Made by a program: the position numbers and the translations under genes. 38,232 bases of DNA from the NCBI GenBank assembly GCA_003022365.1, contig PXOU01000017.1:1-38232 (forward strand), given 5' to 3'. Below the pieces are notes generated by a model, which was given only the letters and a program-made list of their open reading frames with translations, ran no database searches and had not been told where the DNA came from. Below, in pieces: positions 8,055 to 37,145 of this stretch (its first letter is position 1; each line of letters starts with the position of its first letter). The DNA comes from Candidatus Saccharibacteria bacterium QS_5_54_17. GTDB lineage: Bacteria; Patescibacteriota; Saccharimonadia; QS-5-54-17.

Positions 8055-8360
8055 ACACCTCCTTGTCATTCCGAATTTAGTTCGGAATCGTTTGGATCCT
8101 GAACAAGTTCAGGATGACATTTTCCGTTACCCCCTCTTTGTCATTCCGAACTTGTTTCGGAATCTCTCTTCCAGTGTAAAATGGTGGTGGGACATCTCGA
8201 ACACTCCTTGGTTGTTTGATTAGTTGTTACACAAGCCTTATTTAACCAAATGAGCGGGAGAGATGTCCTGCTTTGTTATCTGGACTGGAAACTTTGGAGC
8301 GGAGATGTGGGGAAAAGCTTGCCCGATTAAGTTTAAAATGCTATAGTTTTAGATTGGTAT

Positions 8361-8784
8361 GGGGCTGACAAGCTTCGACGTAAGGACTTTGACACGCTAC
8401 TTGGCACGCCGGGTTGATCTACACGTCAGATGGATCACCACAATACGTGCAAACGTACGAGATAAGGTAGCTGGCGTTGCGGCCAGTGTTGCGAATACGT
8501 TCGCGCCGGCCCAACCGGCTGCCGTTACCGTCGCGGCTTAACTACCGCGACCATCGGTTCCGTGACGCCCAGTAGCGGTTCACCGGTGGCATATCACTGG
8601 GTGTAGGCAAACGTGACGCCGGGAATGCTTGCTGAATCCAATTCCGGCTCGCCGGATGCATGACCGGGGCGTCAAACCCCAAGCCGTGCATCCGCGTTAA
8701 ACCTTCAGGCTGAATTTGACTACGCGTGTAGAAAAGTAGCGGGTTAACTTGCGGACCGGGGTGCAAATCCCCGCAGCTCCACCA
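8361..8784 (+). ncRNA. ssrA: Transfer-messenger RNA (tmRNA)
   Basis: 5' GGGGCTGACAAGCTTCGACG pairs with 3' CAGCTCC-A-CCA. Tag ORF GCG AAT ACG TTC GCG CCG GCC CAA CCG GCT GCC GTT ACC GTC GCG GCT TAA (ANTFAPAQPAAVTVAA*) at 8491-8541, T-arm near the 3' end, encoded CCA. Promoter-like TTGCCC-N17-TATAGT at 8319-8347. Confidence 0.95.
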
Positions 8785-9107: not shown

Positions 9108-10829
9108 ATGGGGGAGGGAATGCCGACCAAGCAGCATCTGATGGACCAGCTCCAGCGCATCGACGGCAAAGGCTACGGGGCGTACAAGGATTTAGGGGGC
9201 AAAACCTATGAGTTTGATGAGTTCACGCTCACCGTCGACCACGTCCAGGGCGACCCCTTCGCCGCTCCCAGCCGATTGCGGGTGCGGGTGCCGCAGGAAA
9301 CAGCCGGGTTCCCTGGAGAAACGTTTCAATCCGAAAGCCGGCGAATCGCCCTCCAGGACTACCTGATCCGGCAATTCGCCCGGGCTGCCGGCCAGGAAAA
9401 TACCGCCCGGGGCAGCGGCAAAAGTGGCAGTATTGGCATTGATCGGCCGGGTCAGCAAGTGCTGTGGCGGACGGCGGTCTCGGTGACGGAAACTTACGTG
9501 GAAGCCCGGTTCACGGTCGGGCTCCCTGCTCAGGGGCGGCGGGTGCTGGGCAAGCAGGCGGCCGTCATGCTGGGCGAGTCACTGCCCCGAATCGTCACCA
9601 GTGCCTTACGTTATGACGCTTTAGATAGGGAAGAACTTACCCAGCATATAGAAACCGTCGAGGACAGCCAATCCCTCCGTGATCAGTTGCGGGATCGTGG
9701 CTTGACCGCCTTCGTGGCTGATGAGGCCATTTTGCCCCGGCGCAGCGGGGTAGACGAACGGCCCATGCACCCCGGCGCCCAACCTTTCCGGTCGCCGGAA
9801 TCGCTGCGGGTCACCCTGCACCGGCCCAACGCCGGCGACATTACCGGTATGGGCGTGCCGACTGGGGTGACACTAATCGTCGGCGGCGGCTATCACGGTA
9901 AATCGACACTGCTGAAAGCACTGGAACAGGGCGTATACGATCATATTCCCGGTGATGGCCGGGAATGGGTGGTGGCCGACCCGGCAGCCGTTAAAATCCG
10001 GGCCGAGGACGGCCGGAGTGTCAGCGGCGTGGACATTTCGCCGTTTATCGATGATCTGCCCGGCGGCGCTGCCACGCGTCATTTCAGCAGCGAAAACGCC
10101 TCGGGCAGCACCTCCCAGGCGGCCAACATCATGGAGATGCTGGAAGCCGGCGCCCGGACGTTTTTGATCGATGAAGATACCTCGGCGACTAATTTCATGA
10201 TACGCGACCACCGGATGCAGGAGTTAATCGGCAAAGATAAAGAGCCCATCACCCCGTTCGTGGATAAAATCCGCCAGTTATATGCCGATCACGGTGTTTC
10301 CACGGTGCTGGTTATGGGCGGCAGCGGTGATTATTTCGAGCACGCCGATACGGTGATCGCCATGGAGGAGTTCGAGCCATATGACGTCACCGAGCGGGCG
10401 GGAGAGATCGCTGAGACGTATAAGGCCGAGCGAAGCGCCGAGGGCGGCGATTATTTCGGATCTATCGCCGACCGGGTGCCCCGTGGTGCCTCCATTGATC
10501 CCGCCAAGGGCAAGAAGCCGGTCGATGTCAAAACCCGGGGGCGGAAACAGGTCCAGTTCGGCATCGGTGACATCGACCTGGCTGGTCTGGAGCAACTGGT
10601 GGATGAAAGCCAAACCAGAGCCATCGCCCAAGGTTTGGTGTATATGAAACAACAGGTATTGACTGATAGCCGGGCGCTCACGGAAGCGCTGGATCGGGTG
10701 GAAGCGGATATCGCCGAGCAAGGGCTTGATGTCCTGGCACTCGGTCATCCCGGCGATCTGGCTGCTCCTCGTCGGTTCGAGCTGGCGGCGGCGCTCAACC
10801 GCTTACGCACGCTGGAAATACACGGATGA
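9108..10829 (+). CDS. ABC-class predicted ATPase (ABC_ATPase / COG3044-like)
   Basis: Family-typical Walker A TLIVGGGYHGKSTLLKALEQGVYDHIPGDGRE; FSSENASGSTSQAANIMEMLEAGARTFLIDEDTSATNFMIRD; VLVMGGSGDYFEHADTVI. The likely start is the ATG at 9120. Confidence 0.9.
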   Translation: MGEGMPTKQHLMDQLQRIDGKGYGAYKDLGGKTYEFDEFTLTVDHVQGDPFAAPSRLRVRVPQETAGFPGETFQSESRRIALQDYLIRQFARAAGQENTARGSGKSGSIGIDRPGQQVLWRTAVSVTETYVEARFTVGLPAQGRRVLGKQAAVMLGESLPRIVTSALRYDALDREELTQHIETVEDSQSLRDQLRDRGLTAFVADEAILPRRSGVDERPMHPGAQPFRSPESLRVTLHRPNAGDITGMGVPTGVTLIVGGGYHGKSTLLKALEQGVYDHIPGDGREWVVADPAAVKIRAEDGRSVSGVDISPFIDDLPGGAATRHFSSENASGSTSQAANIMEMLEAGARTFLIDEDTSATNFMIRDHRMQELIGKDKEPITPFVDKIRQLYADHGVSTVLVMGGSGDYFEHADTVIAMEEFEPYDVTERAGEIAETYKAERSAEGGDYFGSIADRVPRGASIDPAKGKKPVDVKTRGRKQVQFGIGDIDLAGLEQLVDESQTRAIAQGLVYMKQQVLTDSRALTEALDRVEADIAEQGLDVLALGHPGDLAAPRRFELAAALNRLRTLEIHG

Positions 10830-10849
10830 ACCGCTTCCTTCATTAAAAA

Positions 10850-11130
10850 CAGGAAGCAGGAAGCAAGGAGCAAGAAGCAAGTGGCAAGTGGCAACAAAAA
10901 GAGTGTTATTTGGTTTTCCCTCTTTGTCATTCCGAATTTAGTTCGGAATCGGTTCTGAGACCGGTCTTGAAACAGATCCTGAAATAAATTCAGGATGACA
11001 TTTTTCGCCACCCCTCTTAAGATCCACTTGCTTCTTACTTCTTACTGCTTACTTCTTACTTCCTGTTTTTTGCTCCCTGTCTGCCGTCTACTGTCTGCTG
11101 TCTGCGTGCTGCTGCCGGGAGACTATACGA
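10850..11130. repeat. Intergenic repeat mosaic ending in a head box
   Basis: aggaagcaaggagcaagaagcaag...REP-like...ttgcttcttacttcttactgcttac...GCTGCCGGGAGACTATACG. Confidence 0.8.
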
Positions 11131-11136
11131 CGGTCT

Positions 11137-11166
11137 TGACGCCTCATGAAAACTGGAGTATAAGAG
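11137..11166 (+). promoter_or_regulatory. Candidate sigma70-type promoter
   Basis: TTGACG-N17-TATAAG (ttgacgcctcatgaaaactggagtataag) upstream of the ORF at 11199; coordinates approximate. Confidence 0.5.
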
Positions 11167-11198
11167 AAGGCGTGCATTAAAAGACCTCAGCGACCGAT

Positions 11199-11753: not shown

Positions 11754-11962
11754 TCACCTGCCGCTGCTCCCCGGGAGATCAACAGCATCCACGTCCCGAT
11801 CTCAAAGCGCAGGTGAGGTGCCCAGACCCTCCCAATTTTTGCGAATATGGCCAAAATATGTCATAAAGTATGTAATAGGAAAACCGAGGAGTTCCGCTAG
11901 TTCCCCGTCTCCAGACAGGCGTCCTACAAAAAACCCAATAACACACCACCGAGGTAATATTT

Positions 11963-12622
11963 ATGAGTAACAACCAGGAAAATCCTAGGGGTGACAACCC
12001 GGAAATTCCACCCAAACGGCTCGACGACATCTATCCCGAGCGGCTCGACGAGACCTACGAGATCTATTCGGACCCGCATACCTCGGGCGAAACGGACGAA
12101 GCCGTCCAACAATCACCCGAGACCCCCAACAGTCGCTACCAACGGGTGAGCACCTATCTCGGCTCGCTGATGGAACGGGTCGGCCTAGGAGGTGACTCGG
12201 AAGAGCGTCGCCAGGAATACGACCAGGCCGCCGAGGACATGAACCGGCTCACCGACATTGAAAACCGGGTCCGGTGGGAAGGACAGGAAATGACCGCCCA
12301 AGATGTCTATTTCCTGCGTCAGTACAAGGGCAAAGCCCCTCGGATAAGCGCACTACTCCAAGACCGGGACCCGGAAACGGATCTGAACATGATGCTGCAA
12401 GAATTTAACCAGACCCAACTGGTCCGGGGTATGGTCGAATCCGGTTACATTCGCCAAAACATCCTCGTCGACGATCTGGATAAGTTTCTCCAATCCGAGG
12501 CTATCGACCCGGCCCAATTGGCTCGGTATCTGATGGACGAAGGCATAGGGGATGTTGTTGTCCGCAACCTGTACAAGTTTCAGGAGGTACCTGATGATGT
12601 CTGGGAAAGGTTGCCCCGGTAG
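11963..12622 (+). CDS. Short paralogue of the downstream repeat protein
   Basis: N-terminus (MSNN...QRVSTYLGSLMERVGLGGDSEERRQ), AAEDMNRLTDIENRV...TAQDVYFLRQY and DLDKFLQSEAID...NLYKFQEVPDDVWERLPR all match parts of the 12888 ORF and its downstream extension. Confidence 0.8.
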   Translation: MSNNQENPRGDNPEIPPKRLDDIYPERLDETYEIYSDPHTSGETDEAVQQSPETPNSRYQRVSTYLGSLMERVGLGGDSEERRQEYDQAAEDMNRLTDIENRVRWEGQEMTAQDVYFLRQYKGKAPRISALLQDRDPETDLNMMLQEFNQTQLVRGMVESGYIRQNILVDDLDKFLQSEAIDPAQLARYLMDEGIGDVVVRNLYKFQEVPDDVWERLPR

Positions 12623-12887
12623 GGGAGTGCCTAAATTCTCCCAACCATTGCAAACACGTCAAAAATATGTCATAAAGTAGGTATTGGCACGGGAAACGTA
12701 GTCCCGCGTGTCCACGGGAACGGGATCCTCCGGGTCCACGGGAAACCCAAGGAATCCCCCCCGGGTGCACAGGAAACCCAGGAGAGTCCCGGCGGTTTTT
12801 TGTCCCCAAATAAAACCAACACATTTATTCCCAAAAACATCCCAAGACGTCATAAACAACACCTCATAACACACGGAGCCACTACTC

Positions 12888-15257
12888 ATGAGTAACAACC
12901 CGGAAGCCTCACCAGGACAGGCAACCTCAGCCGGACTACTCCCGGATACCTATCAGGACTTGCACAATTCCGATGAGGTGAACTGGGCCGTCCAACGATC
13001 ATATGAGCACGTACCCAACGATCCCCACCAACGGGTAGCCACCTATCTGGGCTCACTGGTAGGCCGGCACGGTCTGCTGGGCGGCTCAGAAGAACGCCGC
13101 CAGGCCCAGGTCGCCCATCACGTCATGGACCCCGAGGACATCCCCGAAAGCTACTTCGACCGGCAACGGGAGATCGCCCGCCAACAGGGACAGGGCGACA
13201 TAGAGATTACCGAAGATATGAAGCAACAACACACCGAAGCCCTGATTGCTGACCAAACAGCCAGTCTCAACGCCTGGGCCGAATACCTCAACGACCCGGA
13301 GGCCGACTACCCGGCCTGGTTCCGCTACTACACCATGCGTAATGTGCTCAAACTGGCCGACTACGACAAAGAAAAAGAAAGATTCAGAAAGCGCAGCCAA
13401 ACCACTACCGCACCCTACCCGGAACTCAACCGAGAAGCTCTGGCATACGTCTACGAACGGCTAAACCGACGGCTAGAAGACCAAAACCAGGACAACGAGC
13501 AACTCCAACAACTGGCAGACCAGGCCAACTTCAACAAACTCTATTCCCACGCTCTGGCCGAATCCGTCCCATCCGATCAAGAACAACTGCAAACTACGGC
13601 CGGGGAATGGACCAAATACGACCAACTCAAGCCCTGGGAAAAATCAGATCGGGCCCACCAGCTAGCCCAGTCGCTGCAAGGATATGGCACTGGCTGGTGC
13701 ACCGCCGGCAAAAAGACAGCCGAGTGGCAACTCGAAGCGGGCGACTTCCACGTTTACTACTCTTATGATGAGGAAGGCCAACCGATCGTCCCCCGGGTAG
13801 CAGTGCGGATGCAAAAAGGCCGGGTAGCCGAAGTCCGGGGTATCGACGCCGACCAGAACCTGGAACCAGCCATCACCGACATCGCCATGGAGCGTATTCA
13901 AGACTTACCCGGCGGCGAGGAATACCTCCAGGCCGCCGAGGACATGAACCGAGTCACCGACATCGAAAACCGTGTTCGCCAGGGAGAGGAACTGACCGCC
14001 CAAGACATTTATTTCCTACGTGAGTACGGCGGCCCAATCCAAAGTTTCGGCTACGGCAAGGACCCCCGGATAGATGAACTACTCCGAGACCGAGATCTGT
14101 CGGCGGATATGGACATGATGTTGGAAAACTTCGACCACGCTGAACTAGCCCAGGACCTGATGGACAGTGGCGAAGAGGGTATGGACACCCTCGCCCAAAA
14201 CCTGGACAAGTTCCACCCCGATGCTCTCGACCAGGCTGAATTTGCTCGAGATCTGATGAACAGGGGCTTGGAGTATATCCTCGCTGCCAACCTGGACAAA
14301 TTCCCAGAAGGCGCTGTCGATCATGCCAAATTTGCTCGGGATCTGATGGAGAGGAAATTGGTGGGTGGGGAAATCCTCGCCGCCAACCTGGATAAGTTCC
14401 CAGATGGCGCTGTCGACCCTGCCCGACTGGCCCGTCGTCTGGTGGTCGAGGGCAGGGGGCATATTGTCGCCCAGAACCTGGAAAAATTCCCAGATGGCGC
14501 TGTCGACCATGCCCAAGTGGCCCGGCATCTGCTCGAATCCGGTGAAGGCGGCCCAAACATCCTCGTCCAAAACCTGGACAAGTTCCCAGATGGTGCGGTC
14601 AATCGGGTCCAACTGGCCCGCGATCTGATAGACAGGGGTAGAACAGGTATGGTCATTCTCGCCAACAACCTGGACAAATTCCCAGAAGGGGCTGTCGACC
14701 AGGTCGAATTGGCTCATGGTCTGCTCGAATCCGGTCCACGCGGCCAACACCATCTCGTCGAAAACCTGGAAAAATTCCCACCCGAGGCCGTCGACCCGAA
14801 CCAAATAGCCCGGCACCTGATGAACGAGGCCGGGGAGCACATCTTCGCTGAAAACCTGGACAAGTTCCTCCAATCCGAGGCTATCGACCAGTTCCAATTG
14901 GTCCGGGATATGATGGACAGTGGTGTGGCTGGTGCGCAAATCCTCGCCGACAATCTGGACAAGTTCCAACCTAAGGCCGTAGATCAGGCCGAATTGGTCC
15001 GAAATTTGCTCAAGTCCAGCCCAAGTGGCCAAAAAGTCCTCGCTGAAAACCTGGACAAGTTCCTCCAATCCGAGGCTATCGACCAGTTCCAATTGGCTCA
15101 GGAGCTGATAGACAGTGGTGGGGATGGTATGAAAATCCTTGCCAACAACCTGGACAAATTCCCAGAAGGCGCCGTTGATCCTGATCAACTGACCCAGGAT
15201 ATGCTCGAATCCGGTGAAAACGGCCAAAGCACCCTCGCCGAGGACAAGTTCCTCTAA
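12888..15257 (+). CDS. Large repeat protein: central WCTAG/GDFHVYYS domain plus about 12 repeats of 30-33 aa
   Basis: GTGWCTAGKKTAEWQLEAGDFHVYYSYDEEGQPIVPRVAVRMQKGRVAEVRGID, then tandem units such as AQVARHLLESGEGGPNILVQNLDKFPDGAVNR. The frame continues past TAA 15255-15257 to TAG 15390-15392. Confidence 0.85.
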   Translation: MSNNPEASPGQATSAGLLPDTYQDLHNSDEVNWAVQRSYEHVPNDPHQRVATYLGSLVGRHGLLGGSEERRQAQVAHHVMDPEDIPESYFDRQREIARQQGQGDIEITEDMKQQHTEALIADQTASLNAWAEYLNDPEADYPAWFRYYTMRNVLKLADYDKEKERFRKRSQTTTAPYPELNREALAYVYERLNRRLEDQNQDNEQLQQLADQANFNKLYSHALAESVPSDQEQLQTTAGEWTKYDQLKPWEKSDRAHQLAQSLQGYGTGWCTAGKKTAEWQLEAGDFHVYYSYDEEGQPIVPRVAVRMQKGRVAEVRGIDADQNLEPAITDIAMERIQDLPGGEEYLQAAEDMNRVTDIENRVRQGEELTAQDIYFLREYGGPIQSFGYGKDPRIDELLRDRDLSADMDMMLENFDHAELAQDLMDSGEEGMDTLAQNLDKFHPDALDQAEFARDLMNRGLEYILAANLDKFPEGAVDHAKFARDLMERKLVGGEILAANLDKFPDGAVDPARLARRLVVEGRGHIVAQNLEKFPDGAVDHAQVARHLLESGEGGPNILVQNLDKFPDGAVNRVQLARDLIDRGRTGMVILANNLDKFPEGAVDQVELAHGLLESGPRGQHHLVENLEKFPPEAVDPNQIARHLMNEAGEHIFAENLDKFLQSEAIDQFQLVRDMMDSGVAGAQILADNLDKFQPKAVDQAELVRNLLKSSPSGQKVLAENLDKFLQSEAIDQFQLAQELIDSGGDGMKILANNLDKFPEGAVDPDQLTQDMLESGENGQSTLAEDKFL

Positions 15258-15392
15258 TCTGAGGCCGTCGATTACTCCGAATTAGCTTGGGGGATGATTG
15301 ACAATGGTAGGGAAGATGTTCTCATCGACAACCTACACAAGTTCCGGAAGGTGCCTGATGATGTCCGGGACCGATTGCCGATCGCGGCATAG
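15258..15392 (+). pseudogene. In-frame C-terminal extension of the repeat protein, separated by a stop codon
   Basis: Same frame after the TAA: SEAVDYSELAWGMIDNGREDVLIDNLHKFRKVPDDVRDRLPIAA*. Matches the intact C-terminus of the 11963 ORF (SEAIDPAQLARYLMDEGIGDVVVRNLYKFQEVPDDVWERLPR*). Confidence 0.75.
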
Positions 15393-15899
15393 GGGAGTGT
15401 GGATTCCGGCTCACCCCTGTCCTGATGACAGCCATTACCGACCTGATACGCCGCTTAACAATTAAAAACTCCCACGCCGCCCATCACCAAAAAAACCCGC
15501 CCATCCCGTGAAGCAGGGGAGGTGACCGGGTGGTGAAGAAGAAGCAAGGAGTAAGAAGTAAGGAGCAAGTGGAAAAATGTAAAGCCTTTTTGTCATTCCG
15601 AATTTAGTTCGGAATCGGCTTTGAAATAGATCCTGAAATAAATTCAGGATGACAATAGGGGAAGATCCTGAAACAAGCCTGCCTGCCGGCAGGCAGGTTC
15701 AGGATGACATATTAAGGAATGGCATTCAGTCCGGTTTTTGTTGCAGGGTTTTGATAATGATTCCGAGTTCTACGCCCGTAACACCCACCTCGTTGTTTAC
15801 TGCATCTGAGGTATTCAATAAGCCGGGAGACTATACGGCTGGCTTTACCTCCGTGGACCATAAGCGCTATAGTATGGCCCAACCTGACCCGAGCGAGGT

Positions 15900-17168
15900 A
15901 TGAGCCAACCCACCAAACGACAACACCCCAAAACCAAAACCGGTGACATAGCCATGGCGCCGCCCCGGATCGAAGGGTCCGATATAGAGCGGGCGCTGGG
16001 CTACATCGAGGCGACGTGGGGCGAGCTGGAGCGTCACCGGCCCCAGGATTCGGAAACCTTGCTGGGGCTGCCGTATCCGTATTTCGTCCCGGGCAGCTGT
16101 CCCCAGCAAGGGTTCATCCATAACGAACTTTATTACTGGGACACCTATTTCATCGCCCTGGGCTTGCTGGATACCACGCGGCACCACCAAGCCTTCGAGC
16201 AGGCCGACAATCTGTTGCACTTGCTGCAACGCTTCGGTTTCGTGCCCTCGGGCAACCGGATATACCTAACCGCCCGGTCGCAACCGCCGCTGCTGTCATC
16301 CTTGCTTTTGGATCTGTATGACCGCGGCGGAAGCAAAGAGTGGCTGGCTCCGCGGATGGAATTGGTCAAAAAAGAATACGAACTGGTTTGGCGCGGCACG
16401 CTACAGCCCCACTGGCGGCAGGTATTCGACGGACTGAGTCGGAATTATGAAATTAACCTCATCGACGAGCTGGCCGAAGCCGAGAGCGGCTGGGATTATA
16501 CCACCCGGTTTTATGGCAGCGCCCTGCAGTATATACCCATCGATCTGAACGCCTTGCTATATAAGTACGAAGTCGACTTTGAGCGCACCTCATTAATCAT
16601 GGGTAAGCCGCGTGAGGCTGAGCAGTGGCAGCAGCGAGCCAAAGAACGCCGACAGCAGGTTGACGCCTACCTATGGAACCAAGACGGGGGGTTTTATTTC
16701 GACTACAACTACCAGACGGGCAAGCAATCCCGGGTGTGGTCGCTGGCGGGCTATTATCCGTTGTGGGCGGGTATGGCCAGCAAAGAACAGGCAGCATCTT
16801 TAGCCAACAATCTGGAAAGATTCGAAGCCGCTGGTGGACTAACCGCCACTTTGTCCCATCCGCACGTCAAAGAGCACCACGCCGCCCAGTGGGTATACCC
16901 CAACGGGTGGGCGCCGCTTCATCTGCTGATTATCCGCGGCCTGGCCGATTACGGGTATGAAATGCTGGCCCAGCGGTTGGCCCGGCGCTGGCTGTACACT
17001 AATTTGCACAGTTTCAACCGGCACGGTGCCTTTTTTGAGAAATACAACGTGGTAGACCTGGACGCCCCGCCCAAGGACGGCGTCTACCCCTCCCAGACCG
17101 GCTTCGGCTGGACCAACGCCGTCTTTGCCGTCCTGGCCCGGGATTACGCCCACACGCTGGGGCCTTAG
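15900..17168 (+). CDS. Trehalase-like glycoside hydrolase (GH37-like)
   Basis: PYPYFVPGSCPQQGFIHNELYYWDTYFIALGL, ESGWDYTTRF, QWVYPNGWAPLHLLIIRGL and FFEKYNVVD resemble trehalase signatures. Confidence 0.88.
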   Translation: MSQPTKRQHPKTKTGDIAMAPPRIEGSDIERALGYIEATWGELERHRPQDSETLLGLPYPYFVPGSCPQQGFIHNELYYWDTYFIALGLLDTTRHHQAFEQADNLLHLLQRFGFVPSGNRIYLTARSQPPLLSSLLLDLYDRGGSKEWLAPRMELVKKEYELVWRGTLQPHWRQVFDGLSRNYEINLIDELAEAESGWDYTTRFYGSALQYIPIDLNALLYKYEVDFERTSLIMGKPREAEQWQQRAKERRQQVDAYLWNQDGGFYFDYNYQTGKQSRVWSLAGYYPLWAGMASKEQAASLANNLERFEAAGGLTATLSHPHVKEHHAAQWVYPNGWAPLHLLIIRGLADYGYEMLAQRLARRWLYTNLHSFNRHGAFFEKYNVVDLDAPPKDGVYPSQTGFGWTNAVFAVLARDYAHTLGP

Positions 17169-17169
17169 T

Positions 17170-17660
17170 GTGACAGGAACAAGAAGCAGGGAGTAAGAAG
17201 CAAGAAGCAAGTGGAAAAATGCAAATCCTCTCTGTCATTCCGAATTTAGTTCGGAATCCAATTCTGCACAACCGTCACAACCACCAACTACCAATGAAAC
17301 ACTAGCTATAACCTCTAGTGACGATCGTCAGCAGAGGTTAGAGGTTTGGCTATCCATCCAGGTTGACAAAAAGAGGAGGATCCTGAAACAAGTTCAGGAT
17401 GACACCCTCTCTCCGTCATTCCGAACTTGGTTCGGAATCCATTAGGCCGATAGGAACCTGAAACAGATCCTGAAACAAGCCTGCCTGCCAGCAGGCAGGT
17501 TCAGGATGACATCTTCAGGATGACAATAGGAGAAGATCCTGAAATAAATTCAGAGCCTGTCCTGAACTTGGTTCAGGAATGACAAATGCAGAGTTTGTGG
17601 CTTTTTACTCCCTGTCTACCGTCTACTGTCTGCCGTCTACTATTACCTGCTTACTTCCCG
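17170..17660. repeat. Intergenic repeat mosaic
   Basis: Heptads, several REP-like palindromes, TAACCTCTAGTGACGATCGTCAGCAGAGGTTA, nested palindrome with one variant base. Confidence 0.8.
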
Positions 17661-26342: not shown

Positions 26343-28088
26343 ATGCGTGTACATGCGCTCCGTTTTGCCTCCCATTTTGCCTCCCACTCCTGGACGCCGT
26401 CGCTCACCTGGGTGGTAGGTATCGGTATTACCATATTGATCGCCGGAGCGGTCTGGTCGCTGAGCGTGGTGGCGATGTGGGCCTACCCGTCGGGGCGGTT
26501 GGCGCCGATGGCGAGCGTTAATGGAACACATCTGGGCGTGGATGACTCCTCCCGGGCGATTTCCAAGCTGGACTCCCAGCAATTATCAGATCATCAGATG
26601 ACCCTGGTCATAGGGGAGGAAACCCATCAAACCACACTTAAGAACGCAGGCTTCCGGGTTGAAGTGGAGGCGACGGTCGATAAGTTGTTATCTGCTCAGC
26701 AGCAGGCAAAAAGTAATCTGCGGCCTTGGAAATTCTGGCGTCCGCGTTCAGCTGCTTTGGTGGTCAATGTCGATGATAAGACGTTCCAGGAATTTTATAA
26801 CTCGGAGTTAGCCCGATACCACAAAAAACCGGTGGATGCCGGGTTAGAGGTAAAACAAGGCAACGTGCATATACGACCAGGAGAGACCACCTGGCGGATA
26901 GATAAGGAGGCGCTGAAGCGCGACATGCGCCGGGCGGCCGCGGCGCTGGATAAACAGGTGCCCGTGGCGGCCCAGCAGCGAAAACCCGGCGTCAGGGCAG
27001 CGGGGCTGGAACCGCTGCGGGCCGAGGCGCAGCAATGGCTTAACAGGGGATTCGCGTTAACACACGCGGGGGAAAGGTATCCGATACCCACCTCAAAACT
27101 GGCCGCCTCAATTATGGTCTCCAAAAAAGAAAAAGCGCCCCAGTTAGCCATTAACCGGAAGCCGATCCACCAATTTATCAAAAAAATAGCCAAAAAAGAC
27201 ATCAATACCGACCCGACACCCGGCCGCCGCATATTGGAAGACGGCCAAGTCACCCGGCGTGAAGAAGGGGAACCGGGGAAGGAAGTCAAGCTGTCCAAAA
27301 CCGTGGAAGCGGTCGCAACTGGGCTTAAGGAAGGAAAAACCAGCGCCGGGTTGCGAGTGCGCAAAATCAAACCCGGCACTCAGACCACCCGTACCTACAC
27401 GGCCACAAGTGACGGATTGCGGGCGCTGCTGGTGAATTTCGCGGCTTCTCATGGCGGGGAGTACGGCCTGGAGTTACGGACATTGAACGGGGATATCCAC
27501 GCCACCTACAACGCCGATAAACGCTTCGTAGCCGCCAGCACCTACAAAATGTATTTAGCCTACGCGGCCTATAAAGAAATCGAGAACGGCAATCTTGCCA
27601 TGGACAAAGACACGGAAGAAGGCACCGTCCGTTTCTGCCTGAGGAAGATGATCCTGTACTCTACCAACCCATGCGCCCACGCCTTAGGCAGGGCGGTCGG
27701 CTGGAAACGGGTCGATTCTTTGCTGAACGAAGCCGGATTCGGCGCGACCACCCTGAACAATCACCGCTCGGACCGGGTGAATAAATACACCACCGCTTCG
27801 GATGCGGCCAGGTTCATGCGGCGGCTGCGGGCCGGAGCATTATTGAACGGGAAGCATACCCGCCAATTACTGGACCGCTTACGTAGTCAAATCTTCCGCA
27901 GCGGCATACCGGCCGGCTCCTCGGGCACGGTCGCCAATAAGGTCGGGTTTTTCCAGGGATACCTCCATGACGTAGGGGTCGTAGAGGGTCCGGGGCGTAA
28001 TTACGTGCTGGCCATATATTCCTCCGGCGGCCAGTGGTGGGAATACCGGCAACTTGCCCAGAAAGTCGAGAACGTACTCGGGCGCTGA
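26343..28088 (+). CDS. Membrane-anchored serine beta-lactamase-like / PBP-like hydrolase
   Basis: N-terminal TM helix, extended VanW/PG-binding-4-like region, then AASTYKMYLAYAAYKE (SxxK), YSTNPCAHALG (SxN-like), VANKVGFFQG (KTG-like position). Confidence 0.8.
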   Translation: MRVHALRFASHFASHSWTPSLTWVVGIGITILIAGAVWSLSVVAMWAYPSGRLAPMASVNGTHLGVDDSSRAISKLDSQQLSDHQMTLVIGEETHQTTLKNAGFRVEVEATVDKLLSAQQQAKSNLRPWKFWRPRSAALVVNVDDKTFQEFYNSELARYHKKPVDAGLEVKQGNVHIRPGETTWRIDKEALKRDMRRAAAALDKQVPVAAQQRKPGVRAAGLEPLRAEAQQWLNRGFALTHAGERYPIPTSKLAASIMVSKKEKAPQLAINRKPIHQFIKKIAKKDINTDPTPGRRILEDGQVTRREEGEPGKEVKLSKTVEAVATGLKEGKTSAGLRVRKIKPGTQTTRTYTATSDGLRALLVNFAASHGGEYGLELRTLNGDIHATYNADKRFVAASTYKMYLAYAAYKEIENGNLAMDKDTEEGTVRFCLRKMILYSTNPCAHALGRAVGWKRVDSLLNEAGFGATTLNNHRSDRVNKYTTASDAARFMRRLRAGALLNGKHTRQLLDRLRSQIFRSGIPAGSSGTVANKVGFFQGYLHDVGVVEGPGRNYVLAIYSSGGQWWEYRQLAQKVENVLGR

Positions 28089-28312
28089 ATAGGAAGCAGC
28101 AAGCAGTAAGCAGTAAGAAGCAAGCAAGAAAACAAGGAACAGGGAACAGGTAACAGGGAACAGGTAACAGGGAACAGGTAACAGGGAGCAAGTAGCAGGA
28201 AGCAAGGAACAAGTGGGGAACGGGAAGCAAGGAGCAAGTAGCAGGTAACAGTAGGCGGTAGACGGCAGACAGTAGACAGGGAATGGGGGACAAGGAGCAA
28301 GTGGGAAAATGC
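28088..28312. repeat. Longest heptanucleotide tandem array in the window
   Basis: Successive 7-mers such as aacaggg aacaggt aacaggg aacaggt aacaggg agcaagt agcagga agcaagg aacaagt. Confidence 0.85.
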
Positions 28313-28369
28313 AAATTCTCTCTGTCATTCCGAACTTGTTTCAGAATCTAATTCTGCAACGAAAAAGTC

Positions 28370-29437
28370 TAAGTTCTATTTGTGATCCGAACACCCTGCC
28401 GGAAAGGGTAGACTCGGATCATGAAGCAACATCACACCAAACTCACCACCCACGACAGAGACAATCTCGCTCGTTGGCAGGCTCAGGGCATCTCTATGAG
28501 AGAGATGGCCAGACGGCTCGGGCGTTCAGTCTCAACTATTAGCGATGAATTCAAGAAAGGAGGTAAAGCCGGCGGCGAATACGCCGGGATCAGAGCGCAA
28601 CGTCTAAGCAACCTGCGAAAGGCCAAAAGCTATGTTCGACCGCCACTGAAGAACGACTGGCTCTACGCCTACGTCCACGCCAGATTGGGGGATGGGTGGA
28701 GTCCAGAGCAGATCAGCGGCCGCCTGAAGCGGGACTACCCCGGCGAGAAGACCCGGCATATCAACCACGAAACCATCTACCGGTTCATCTATGCCGAGGA
28801 GAACCGGGAATTGCAACTGTGGGAGTATCTGCCCCGGAAGCAGAAGAGGCGGTGCAAGCAGCACGGTCGCAAGGCCTCTCGCAGCTGTATCCCAAACCGG
28901 GTATCCATTCACCAGCGGCCGGTGACGGTTGCAGAGCGGGCGGAGTTCGGGCATTTCGAGGGCGACAGTATCGAAGGCCGGCGCGTCCACAAAGATGGTA
29001 TTCACACCGAGGTAGAAAGAAAGAGCCGTAAGACGTTTGCCCGTAAAGTTAATCGGATTGCCTCGGCGGAAACCCTCTCCGCCCAGCTGGCTATATTCGA
29101 ACGTGTGCCGGCCCCGGCCCGCCGCTCCACTACCTTGGATAACGGCAAGGAGCACTCCCTACACGAGCAACTGACCACCGATCTTGGTACGAACGTCTAT
29201 TTTGCCGATCCCTATTCCTCCTGGCAGCGGGGCAGCAACGAATACCATAACGGCCTGCTCAGGCGCTATCTGCCAAAACGAACGGACTTTAGCACTCTGA
29301 CCCAGGACGAACTGGACGATATCGTCGAAGAGATTAACAACCGGCCCAGGAAATGCCTGGACTACGCCACGCCCAACGAGGTATTCTCGGAAGAGTTAAC
29401 CAAGGCGGGTGTTCGGATCGAAAGTCGAATGTAGGAA
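28370..29437 (+). mobile_element. IS30-family insertion sequence (approximate ends)
   Basis: Contains the transposase; 13-bp inverted repeat GATCCGAACACCC (28384-28396) / GGGTGTTCGGATC (29407-29419) with a weaker outward extension. Confidence 0.7.
28421..29434 (+). CDS. IS30-family transposase
   Basis: N-terminal HTH (ISMREMARRLGRSVSTIS); DDE residues in FEGDSIEG, TTLDNGKEH and SNEYHNGLLRRYLPK. Confidence 0.95.
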   Translation: MKQHHTKLTTHDRDNLARWQAQGISMREMARRLGRSVSTISDEFKKGGKAGGEYAGIRAQRLSNLRKAKSYVRPPLKNDWLYAYVHARLGDGWSPEQISGRLKRDYPGEKTRHINHETIYRFIYAEENRELQLWEYLPRKQKRRCKQHGRKASRSCIPNRVSIHQRPVTVAERAEFGHFEGDSIEGRRVHKDGIHTEVERKSRKTFARKVNRIASAETLSAQLAIFERVPAPARRSTTLDNGKEHSLHEQLTTDLGTNVYFADPYSSWQRGSNEYHNGLLRRYLPKRTDFSTLTQDELDDIVEEINNRPRKCLDYATPNEVFSEELTKAGVRIESRM

Positions 29438-29688: not shown

Positions 29689-30294
29689 ATGGAGCATTTA
29701 GTCGAAAGCATGCAAGCCAACGGCGCCTTGCGGACGCCGGAGCTGATCTCGGCCTTCCGCGACGTCGACCGGACGGACTTTTTACCCCAGGATCAAATAC
29801 CTTTGGCCGGGCGGGACCGCCCGTTACCTATCGGCCAAGGACAGACCAACTCCCAGCCATCGACCGTCGCTTTTACGCTTGAGATGTTACAGCCCCAAGC
29901 CGGCGACCGCATATTGGATGTGGGGTCCGGTTCCGGGTGGACGACGGCCTTATTGGCGCATGTGGTGGGAGAAGCAGGCTATGTGTACGGCGTGGAACGG
30001 GTGGATGGATTGGTCGAATTCGGCCGCCGGAACCTGGACGCGTATAACTTTGCCAACGCCGAAATCACCAGCGCCGGCGACAGCTTCGGGTTACTCCGTA
30101 AAGCTCCTTTCGATAAAATTTTGGTTTCCGCCTCGGCCGAGACAATACCCGGGGAACTGGTAGACCAAATCGCACCAGGCGGCCGTATGGTCATCTCGGT
30201 GGGGAATTCGCTGATGTGTGTAGAAAAGTCGGCAACCGGGGAGATAGATACCCGGGAATATCCCGGCTTCGTGTTCGTGCCGCTGAAGCGCTAG
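29689..30294 (+). CDS. Protein-L-isoaspartate O-methyltransferase-like protein
   Basis: RTDFLPQ...GQGQTNSQPSTVAFTLEMLQPQAGDRILDVGSGSGWTTALLAHVVG...VYGVERV...FDKILVSASAETIPGELVDQIAPGGRMVISVG. RBS gaggagagggagg before the ATG at 29689. Confidence 0.92.
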   Translation: MEHLVESMQANGALRTPELISAFRDVDRTDFLPQDQIPLAGRDRPLPIGQGQTNSQPSTVAFTLEMLQPQAGDRILDVGSGSGWTTALLAHVVGEAGYVYGVERVDGLVEFGRRNLDAYNFANAEITSAGDSFGLLRKAPFDKILVSASAETIPGELVDQIAPGGRMVISVGNSLMCVEKSATGEIDTREYPGFVFVPLKR

Positions 30295-30329
30295 CAGGGA
30301 AGGGTCTCTTACTCTGAACCCTTGTGGTT

Positions 30330-30950
30330 TAGGGGTTTGGCCCGGCAGCGGGAATAGGAAGCAAGCAGTAAGAAGTAAGAAGCAAGTAAAAACAGACAGC
30401 AGACAGGGAGTGAGAAGCAACAGGCTCTAAACCTGTCATCCTGAACCTGTCTGCCGACAGGCAGGCTTGTTTCAGGATCAGTCTCAGGGTCATGTCGGCT
30501 TGATGGATTCCGGATCACTTCGACTTTGCTCAGTGCGAGCGGGGTCCGGAATGACAAAAGAGAGGAAGCTCTTTTTTTGCAAGGACCGTCCTTGCAATTT
30601 TGCGCCAATTAGCGCTTTTGGTAGCGATTTTTAATCTTGCAAGGAACGTCCTTGCAATGATTGTCATCCTGAATTTATTTCAGGATCTATTTCTGACTCA
30701 CATCGGGTTAATAGATTCCGGATCGGGGTCCGGAATGACAAAGAGGGTGAGGAAAAAGAAGTATCCTCCTGAACCTGTCATCCTGAACTTGTTTCAGGAT
30801 CTATTGCAGACTCACATCGGGTTAAAGGATTCTGAACCAAGTTCAGAATGACAAATAAGGTTTGCATGTTTCCACTTGCTACTTGCTCCCTGTTCCCTGT
30901 TCCCCGTCTACTGTCTGCTGACTACCGTCCACTCCCTGCTTGCTGTGCTA
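30330..30950. repeat. Intergenic repeat mosaic
   Basis: Partial head box ggcccggcagcgggaataggaag, heptads, REP-like copies, MITE-like copy 2, second nested insertion. Confidence 0.8.
30577..30657. mobile_element. MITE-like element, copy 2
   Basis: TTGCAAGGACCGTCCTTGCAA...TTGCAAGGAACGTCCTTGCAA around TTTTGCGCCAATTAGCGCTTTTGGTAGCGATTTTTAATC; clearly homologous to 26089-26168. Confidence 0.7.
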
Positions 30951-36521: not shown

Positions 36522-36833
36522 CTAGTACACCGGGGTTGGTTGGTCGACGGAACAGTTGTTTTTCACCCATTCCACGTCCATGTCCTGGTACTCCACCCGC
36601 TCACCGTCGATGACAAAGTACTGCCGCTGGGTGCCGGTTTCTGGTTGCTCGCCTTCAGGGGTAGCTTGGGGCATGCGGTTGGCGTACCACCGGTCGGGGC
36701 ATTCACGGCGCCCGTCGCTGGCCATATGCTGCTGCCACATCCAGCCGGTCCCCGCCAATATGAGCAGGATTCCCACGACCACCAGCAGCATCACGGTTTT
36801 GTTGCTCCGGAGCCGTTTCAGGAGCTGTTTCAT
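36522..36833 (-). CDS. Small single-pass membrane protein
   Basis: Likely starts at MKQLLKRLRSNKTVMLLVVVGILLILAGTGWMW; the longer ORF runs into repeat DNA. Confidence 0.5.
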   Translation of the reverse strand: MKQLLKRLRSNKTVMLLVVVGILLILAGTGWMWQQHMASDGRRECPDRWYANRMPQATPEGEQPETGTQRQYFVIDGERVEYQDMDVEWVKNNCSVDQPTPVY

Positions 36834-36889
36834 AGCCTCGAGTATACCCGATGCACCATAAGAAAGTCGAGGCGGGATGGGGAGGAGAC

Positions 36890-37145
36890 GGTAGACAGGG
36901 AACGGGGAAGAAGGATTAAGCAGCAAGAAGTAAGAAGTAAGTGGAAATAAAAGAGAGTTATTCCTGTTTTCCCTCTCCGTCATTCCGAAGACGTCATCCC
37001 GGACCCCGATCCGGGATCAGTTTCGGAATCCAATTCTGCAACAGGGAACTGATCCCGGATCACTTCGACCTTGCTCAGTGCGGGCGGGGTCCGGGATGAC
37101 AATTGAATCGGAGTCAAAGCCTGTCCTGAATCTATTTCAGCTTAC
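36890..37145. repeat. Intergenic repeat mosaic
   Basis: gcagcaagaagtaagaagtaagtggaaataaaagagagttattcctg..., REP-like copies, ATCACTTCGACCTTGCTCAGTGCGGGCGGGGTCC insertion. Confidence 0.8.

Follow-up and report, generated by a model that had tools for sequence, protein, structure and literature searches.

Two neighbouring genes of Candidatus Saccharibacteria bacterium QS_5_54_17 encode proteins that resemble each other at both ends and of which only the longer has a large central domain. What kind of protein is the long one, and is the short one its partner? Both genes lie on contig PXOU01000017.1 (C17; assembly GCA_003022365.1), the whole of which was analysed (38,232 nucleotides, hereafter the window) and which belongs to an 816-kb genome, 90% complete. 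The evidence leans towards the long product being a solenoid-bearing member of a modular family of recognition proteins of Patescibacteria, in which a constant core of ~320 amino acids (aa) and a linker are followed by an exchangeable binding module.

Two paralogues, with and without a core

The short open reading frame (ORF; 219 aa) lies directly upstream of the long one (789 aa). The two proteins match with E = 4.9e-29 in the linker and repeats and E = 1.1e-9 in the N-terminus, and because these values are far beyond chance the two ORFs are real paralogues, in tandem where an earlier note, made from the sequence alone, had placed them. The N-terminal block, the linker (AAEDMNR..TDIENRV...) and ARM/HEAT-like repeats occur in both. 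In the short product, which begins MSNNQENP..., the N-terminal block is joined straight to AAEDMNRLTDIENRV, after which come roughly two units and a cap; in the long product the same block precedes a centre of ~275 aa (residues ~74–349), the same linker (AAEDMNRVTDIENRV...) and ~12 units of 30–33 aa. The centre is missing from the short product, whose relation to the long one thus resembles an internal deletion, as had been proposed. The parts of the locus are as follows.

11963–12622, + strand: core-less paralogue of 219 aa, made up of N-terminal block, linker, roughly two ARM-like units and a cap
12227–12367, + strand: linker (AAEDMNRLTDIENRV...) of this paralogue, immediately after its N-terminal block
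12368–12619, + strand: end of the core-less paralogue, with two repeat units and a C-terminal cap (FQEVPDDVWERLPR)
12866–12887, + strand: 5' leader with GGAG, common to the copies of this genome
12888–15257, + strand: long paralogue, 789 aa
12888–13106, + strand: N-terminal block of the long paralogue, residues 1–73, the first ~21 disordered in the model
13107–13934, + strand: conserved core, residues ~74–349, absent from the short form
13602–13856, + strand: WCT subdomain, residues ~239–323, also found in phage polyvalent proteins (GEWTKYDQ...GTGWCTAG...GDFHVYY...PRVAVRM...AEVRGI..DQ)
13935–14096, + strand: linker between core and solenoid, also present in core-less forms
14097–15236, + strand: ARM/HEAT-like alpha-solenoid, ~12 units of 30–33 aa (putative recognition module)
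15255–15257, + strand: TAA stop inside a repeat unit, which deprives the protein of its last unit and cap
15258–15392, + strand: untranslated remnant with the coding sequence of one unit and the cap (..FRKVPDDVRDRLPIAA)

The solenoid that the earlier note had read from the repeats was borne out by a full-length AlphaFold model, in which regular helix pairs with a spacing of 30–33 aa run through residues 404–783 (pLDDT mostly 85–98). In Foldseek searches the modelled solenoid was nearest to engineered and natural helical-repeat proteins, and the repeat region gave an ARM-like Pfam match (GUN4_N, 25.4 bits for a cut-off of 24.3). Matches to AAA_3, Glutaredoxin2_C, BET and similar Pfam families in the repeats were below threshold and were treated as chance.

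The long ORF does not end where its relatives do. Sibling repeat units are open at the place of its TAA, which is an ordinary stop, and the in-frame sequence beyond it corresponds to the one unit and cap with which other copies end. This stop possibly reflects early decay or a sequencing error. Both ORFs described in the note are thus present, but the long one has lost its last unit and cap, and the two are part of a set of six.

A persistent core with exchangeable modules

When 84,980 species genomes were scanned with two motifs, 266 core relatives were found, of which 80 were kept; since the family searches were motif-seeded, these numbers refer to motif-bearing members, and several of the 80 loci that were read run off contig edges. 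Relatives are mostly from Patescibacteria, with some labelled as Bacilli/Firmicutes, Melainabacteria or Deltaproteobacteria; their genomes are metagenome bins and some of these labels may be wrong. In an even sample of Patescibacteria the core was present in 25 of 380 genomes, mostly as a single copy. The family was not matched in Pfam, NCBIfam, PHROGs, PADLOC or PDB sequences, nor when phage and plasmid records were searched with the core by tblastn, and a single-sequence scan of genome contigs gave no match. One relative, labelled as deltaproteobacterial (L105, 5094–9875), has ~870 additional N-terminal residues, in which no Pfam family scored over its cut-off.

Thirteen residues (W270, C271, T272, G285, D286, F287, P302, A305, R307, E315, R317, G318 and Q323) are invariant in 65 bacterial and 43 phage sequences, the window included; WCT and GDF served as search seeds, so that their invariance is partly ascertained, while the remaining residues were not seeds. 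The invariant C, T, D, R, E, R and Q look like an active site. Among the three copies with a core in this genome, the ratio of nonsynonymous to synonymous substitution rates (dN/dS) of the core is 0.09–0.12 (271 codons), and the core is under purifying selection. No signal- or transmembrane-like segment was seen in 78 of 80 members.

What follows the core and linker varies. Some members have leucine-rich-type repeats of 22 aa (LTSAEGLxLPESIGGxLxL), others ARM-like units like those of the window or DUF4116 repeats (Pfam E = 1e-58), and still others one of two kinds of variable domain. Module labels, assigned by pattern and by eye, change at least 16 times on a maximum-likelihood tree of the core (minimum 5; mean for shuffled labels 34.8); on well-supported branches ARM modules must have arisen four times or more, and six exchanges are between variable domains and repeats. 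The modules have therefore been exchanged on a persistent core. Neither this exchange nor the link to hypermutation described below was noticed in the earlier note. The three cores of this genome fall in a supported set with eight members that have variable domains of the type described below.

Diversification of the C-terminal ends

At 13 loci of relatives, a copy of the 3' end of the core gene lies downstream of it, and 264 of the 269 mismatches between the two fall at adenines of that copy; a second scan, which favoured no base, again gave adenine-specific mismatches (14 loci). Such an adenine-biased mismatch between template and variable repeats is the signature of mutagenic retrohoming by diversity-generating retroelements (DGRs). 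Reverse transcriptases with a DGR-like SQ motif (RVT_1, E = 1e-16 to 1e-26) adjoin several core genes that bear variable domains, as do bAvd-like genes (PF22296, E = 5e-14 and 4e-7). Apart from housekeeping genes, those that recur next to core genes encode reverse transcriptases and small accessory proteins; a recurrent dedicated partner gene was not found beside the kept relatives, where DGR components recur and the remainder is housekeeping. Relatives with leucine-rich or ARM repeats showed no base bias in the second scan.

The core also occurs on a contig filed as viral in IMG/VR (L128, 5716–9589), which has a full-length core protein, 53% identical to the window core, and a DGR with 26 of 27 mismatches at template adenines. 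This contig is either from a virus of the Candidate Phyla Radiation (CPR) or a mis-filed CPR contig.

In the genome studied here no template/variable pair was present at the long copies on contigs C18 and C21, which showed ordinary repeats without base bias (the window copy lay outside that scan). The number of repeats per copy, counted with one pattern, ranges from 1 to 14. When 41 units were compared, the scaffold (NLDKF, VD, LA..L, G) was fixed and variation was confined to alignment positions 8, 20, 24, 26, 27, 30, 31 and 35.

The core-less copies

Three of the six copies have a core (the window copy, C18:54753 and C21:25841) and three are core-less, namely the short ORF of the window and a tandem pair, C18:4251 (419 aa) and C18:5697 (618 aa). 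As core-less copies can be long, 'short' really means 'without core'. A leader (...TCATAACACACGGAG...ATG) precedes all six, in a modified and less exact form at the short copy of the window.

The earlier note had mentioned, as inference only, that the short protein might be an inhibitor, decoy or subunit of the long one, and had asked whether such pairs recur. No homologue with the paired architecture was found, which is the first of the outcomes that the note had named as refuting its reading. Core-less (linker-only) matches came from this genome only among 380 Patescibacteria genomes (0 of the 379 others), and no core-less paralogue was found at ~80 loci of relatives with flanks of up to 8 kb. 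Outside this genome, the candidates in the flanks were only disrupted or shortened core genes, core genes that had escaped the motif filter, and one divergent copy (L117, 5286–7370), a second core-like protein adjoining a core gene (36% identity over 126 residues). Of the three core-less copies, only that of the window adjoins a long one.

Selection was estimated from ~50 codons each for the N-terminal block and the linker, so that the following values are rough. For the N-terminal block, dN/dS is 0.07–0.16 among long copies versus 0.65–1.27 among core-less copies; the linker of the core-less copies gives ~0.2–0.6 (~0.2–0.4 against most other copies). In the N-terminal block dS is 0.12–0.26 among core-less copies versus 0.5–0.8 between core-less and long copies, which indicates that the core-less copies are one class, copied later. 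They would be explained if the core was lost once and the resulting form then multiplied in this genome.

A dedicated partnership is suggested by the adjacency of the two ORFs on one strand, by their similar leader and N-terminal block and by the dN/dS of the core-less linker, but the restriction to one genome, the position of two copies away from any long copy and the relaxed N-terminal block make it improbable. It is quite possible that duplication and deletion left the core-less ORFs behind as non-functional remnants, with the long window copy at the start of its decay; their occurrence in this genome only, the relaxed N-terminal constraint and the stop inside the long copy fit this explanation, whereas the three open frames of 219, 419 and 618 aa, each with its cap, and the small number of codons behind the dN/dS values speak against it. 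With dS as low as 0.12–0.26 many stops would not be expected, so the open frames are uninformative either way. Judged from these sequence comparisons, the core-less ORFs are most likely by-products, or at best passive competitors that could still bind but not act, rather than a conserved subunit. We rank by-product before competitor because the form is known from this genome only, is not regularly beside a long copy and has relaxed constraint on its N-terminal block.

Fold of the core and links to phage proteins

The core was modelled with a pLDDT of 85. A fold search of the PDB gave only weak, acetyltransferase-like matches (probability ≤0.28), which were rejected. When the model was compared by Foldseek with predicted viral proteins (BFVD), the best match was an uncharacterised phage protein of 1494 aa (E = 1.7e-6), and the next were mostly PcfJ-like (E = 3e-3 to 4e-2, probability 0.41–0.91, TM-scores 0.22–0.31), so that PcfJ-like phage proteins are the best annotated viral neighbours. 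The Pfam PcfJ profile (PF14284) was not matched by the core. In a profile–profile comparison the motifs were in register over 72 columns (WC/HC, AIR/TIE, EVRG/QxKG), but the hhalign score was 18.6 versus 17.5 for the best of 40 shuffles, with a probability of 1.5%, which is not significant. A loose PcfJ resemblance had been guessed at for the centre in the earlier note; the structural neighbours point the same way and the profile comparison falls short of significance, and we make no claim of PcfJ membership. A kinship is nevertheless suggested by the model, as a lead that is strengthened because tandem repeats are found at the ends of phage PcfJ proteins as well, and because phage giants contain the WCT subdomain. 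The repeats on phage PcfJ proteins include the ITSLP type that is also seen on WCT-core proteins (L108, L119), and the giants with the subdomain bear the polyvalent-protein domain LPD38 (hhalign 99.7%). Polyvalent proteins are thought to enter with parasite DNA by injection (PMC5512222).

Tandem repeats of further types were noted on PcfJ-like proteins of phages and CPR bacteria (L191–L202, L173), namely an SSGDYSQLA type, a ITSLPDNMSVGGYLDL type in L200 and a GKLTTIGGSADFSESQITDL type in L201.

Other features of the window

A transfer-messenger RNA gene (8301–8784) has a predicted tag peptide that is unusually long, with 28 residues (VRDKVAGVAASVANTFAPAQPAAVTVAA). Similar low-complexity intergenic stretches at ~10745–11180, 17014–17271, 27814–28328, 30091–30420 and 36522–36983 contain spurious ORFs rich in LLPASCFLLP; stretches of this type recur in other contigs of the genome and look like a dispersed purine-rich repeat. 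By eye, the ORF at 28421–29434 resembles an IS30-type transposase.

Discussion

In this family a conserved core is combined with ends that have been repeatedly exchanged and are partly hypermutated, mostly without a membrane or signal segment. The best reading of the long ORF product is that of a soluble recognition protein with a constant core and a variable binding end. Inside the cell, the module would bind a changing target, be it a protein of a phage, of a mobile element or of the host cell; the core would execute or report the response to recognition, or serve as an anchor. Where relatives have a DGR, mutagenic retrohoming would rewrite the binding surface; in this genome the surface may vary as repeat units are gained, lost and exchanged among the six paralogues.

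Several observations weigh against this reading. The family is sporadic (6.6% of the sampled genomes), and no neighbourhood names a function. RVT_1 was not matched in the genome of the window (90% complete), in which diversification is suggested solely by the comparison of repeats, and the long copy of the window, truncated by a stop, may be decaying. A C-type-lectin fold is expected for DGR variable domains (PMC8144416), but those of the relatives had no sequence match in Pfam or the PDB and none to known C-type lectins.

The proteins might instead be exported effectors or adhesins that touch or manipulate a bacterial host, with modules that vary to match host surface proteins. Patescibacteria are episymbionts of bacterial hosts, a lifestyle with which such a role would agree. 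DGR targets in characterised cells are moreover surface-displayed (PMC8144416). The near absence of signal- or transmembrane-like segments makes this rather unlikely, and targets of the CPR clade 2, too, are typically without recognisable transmembrane or other conserved domains (Roux et al. 2021, PMC8144416), although export by a non-Sec route is conceivable. We are equally doubtful of a PcfJ-like mobile-element domain for DNA transfer or takeover, with the genes as domesticated or resident pieces of phages or conjugative elements. The WCT subdomain within LPD38 giants, the structural neighbours of the core and the tandem repeats of phage PcfJ proteins favour such an origin, but the Pfam profile is unmatched, the profile–profile probability is very low, and the bacterial core genes sit among housekeeping genes with no other phage genes.

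Among the known systems close to this family are CPR-type DGR targets: a C-terminal variable repeat, a downstream template repeat, adenine-specific mismatches, a bAvd-like gene and a reverse transcriptase are present in relatives that have the same core, and the family resembles clade-2 targets in mostly having no membrane segment. The window copies differ in ending in helical repeats, with no template/variable pair at the tested paralogues and no reverse transcriptase match in the genome. The core is like PcfJ (PF14284) in its Foldseek neighbours (probability up to 0.91, E = 3e-3), registered motifs and the repeats that follow phage PcfJ, and unlike it in Pfam, in the profile comparison and in its low TM-scores. 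With phage polyvalent proteins (LPD38) it has in common a WCT subdomain with identical invariant residues; the phage proteins are, however, ~850–3350 aa long, the two scanned giants of 3000 aa having LPD38, while the bacterial ones consist of the core and one binding module, and no LPD domain was matched by Pfam in the long window protein. NLR-like/STAND sensors (PMC10907252) likewise have a constant part and a variable recognition end that is sometimes diversified by a DGR, but no NTPase (NACHT/NB-ARC) or known effector domain scored over cut-off here (Pfam, PADLOC, NCBIfam). Finally, the window repeats are tandem helical units like those of ARM/HEAT alpha-solenoids (by Pfam, model and Foldseek), although their consensus (NLDKFP.GAVDHAQLARDLM..G...ILA) is peculiar to the WCT-core family.

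More speculatively, the whole could be an antibody-like receptor system, in which a constant WCT/PcfJ-like effector core, found in Patescibacteria and some other phyla, is joined either to a domain hypermutated on demand by a retroelement or to recombining leucine-rich or ARM solenoids. Such a system would act within the cell as a diversifiable sensor, directed against phages or used in contact with the host; we regard this as unlikely at present. In our literature search no publication connected PcfJ with DGRs. Part of this may be described in the main survey of DGRs in the CPR (Paul et al. 2017), and core proteins may overlap with DGR targets already reported there.

In the 14 DGR targets examined here a definable core precedes the variable part. 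The constant part is now concrete enough to be expressed, solved and mutated, and the shared core allows one to ask whether hypermutation by a retroelement and recombination of repeats are alternative ways of diversifying one recognition protein.

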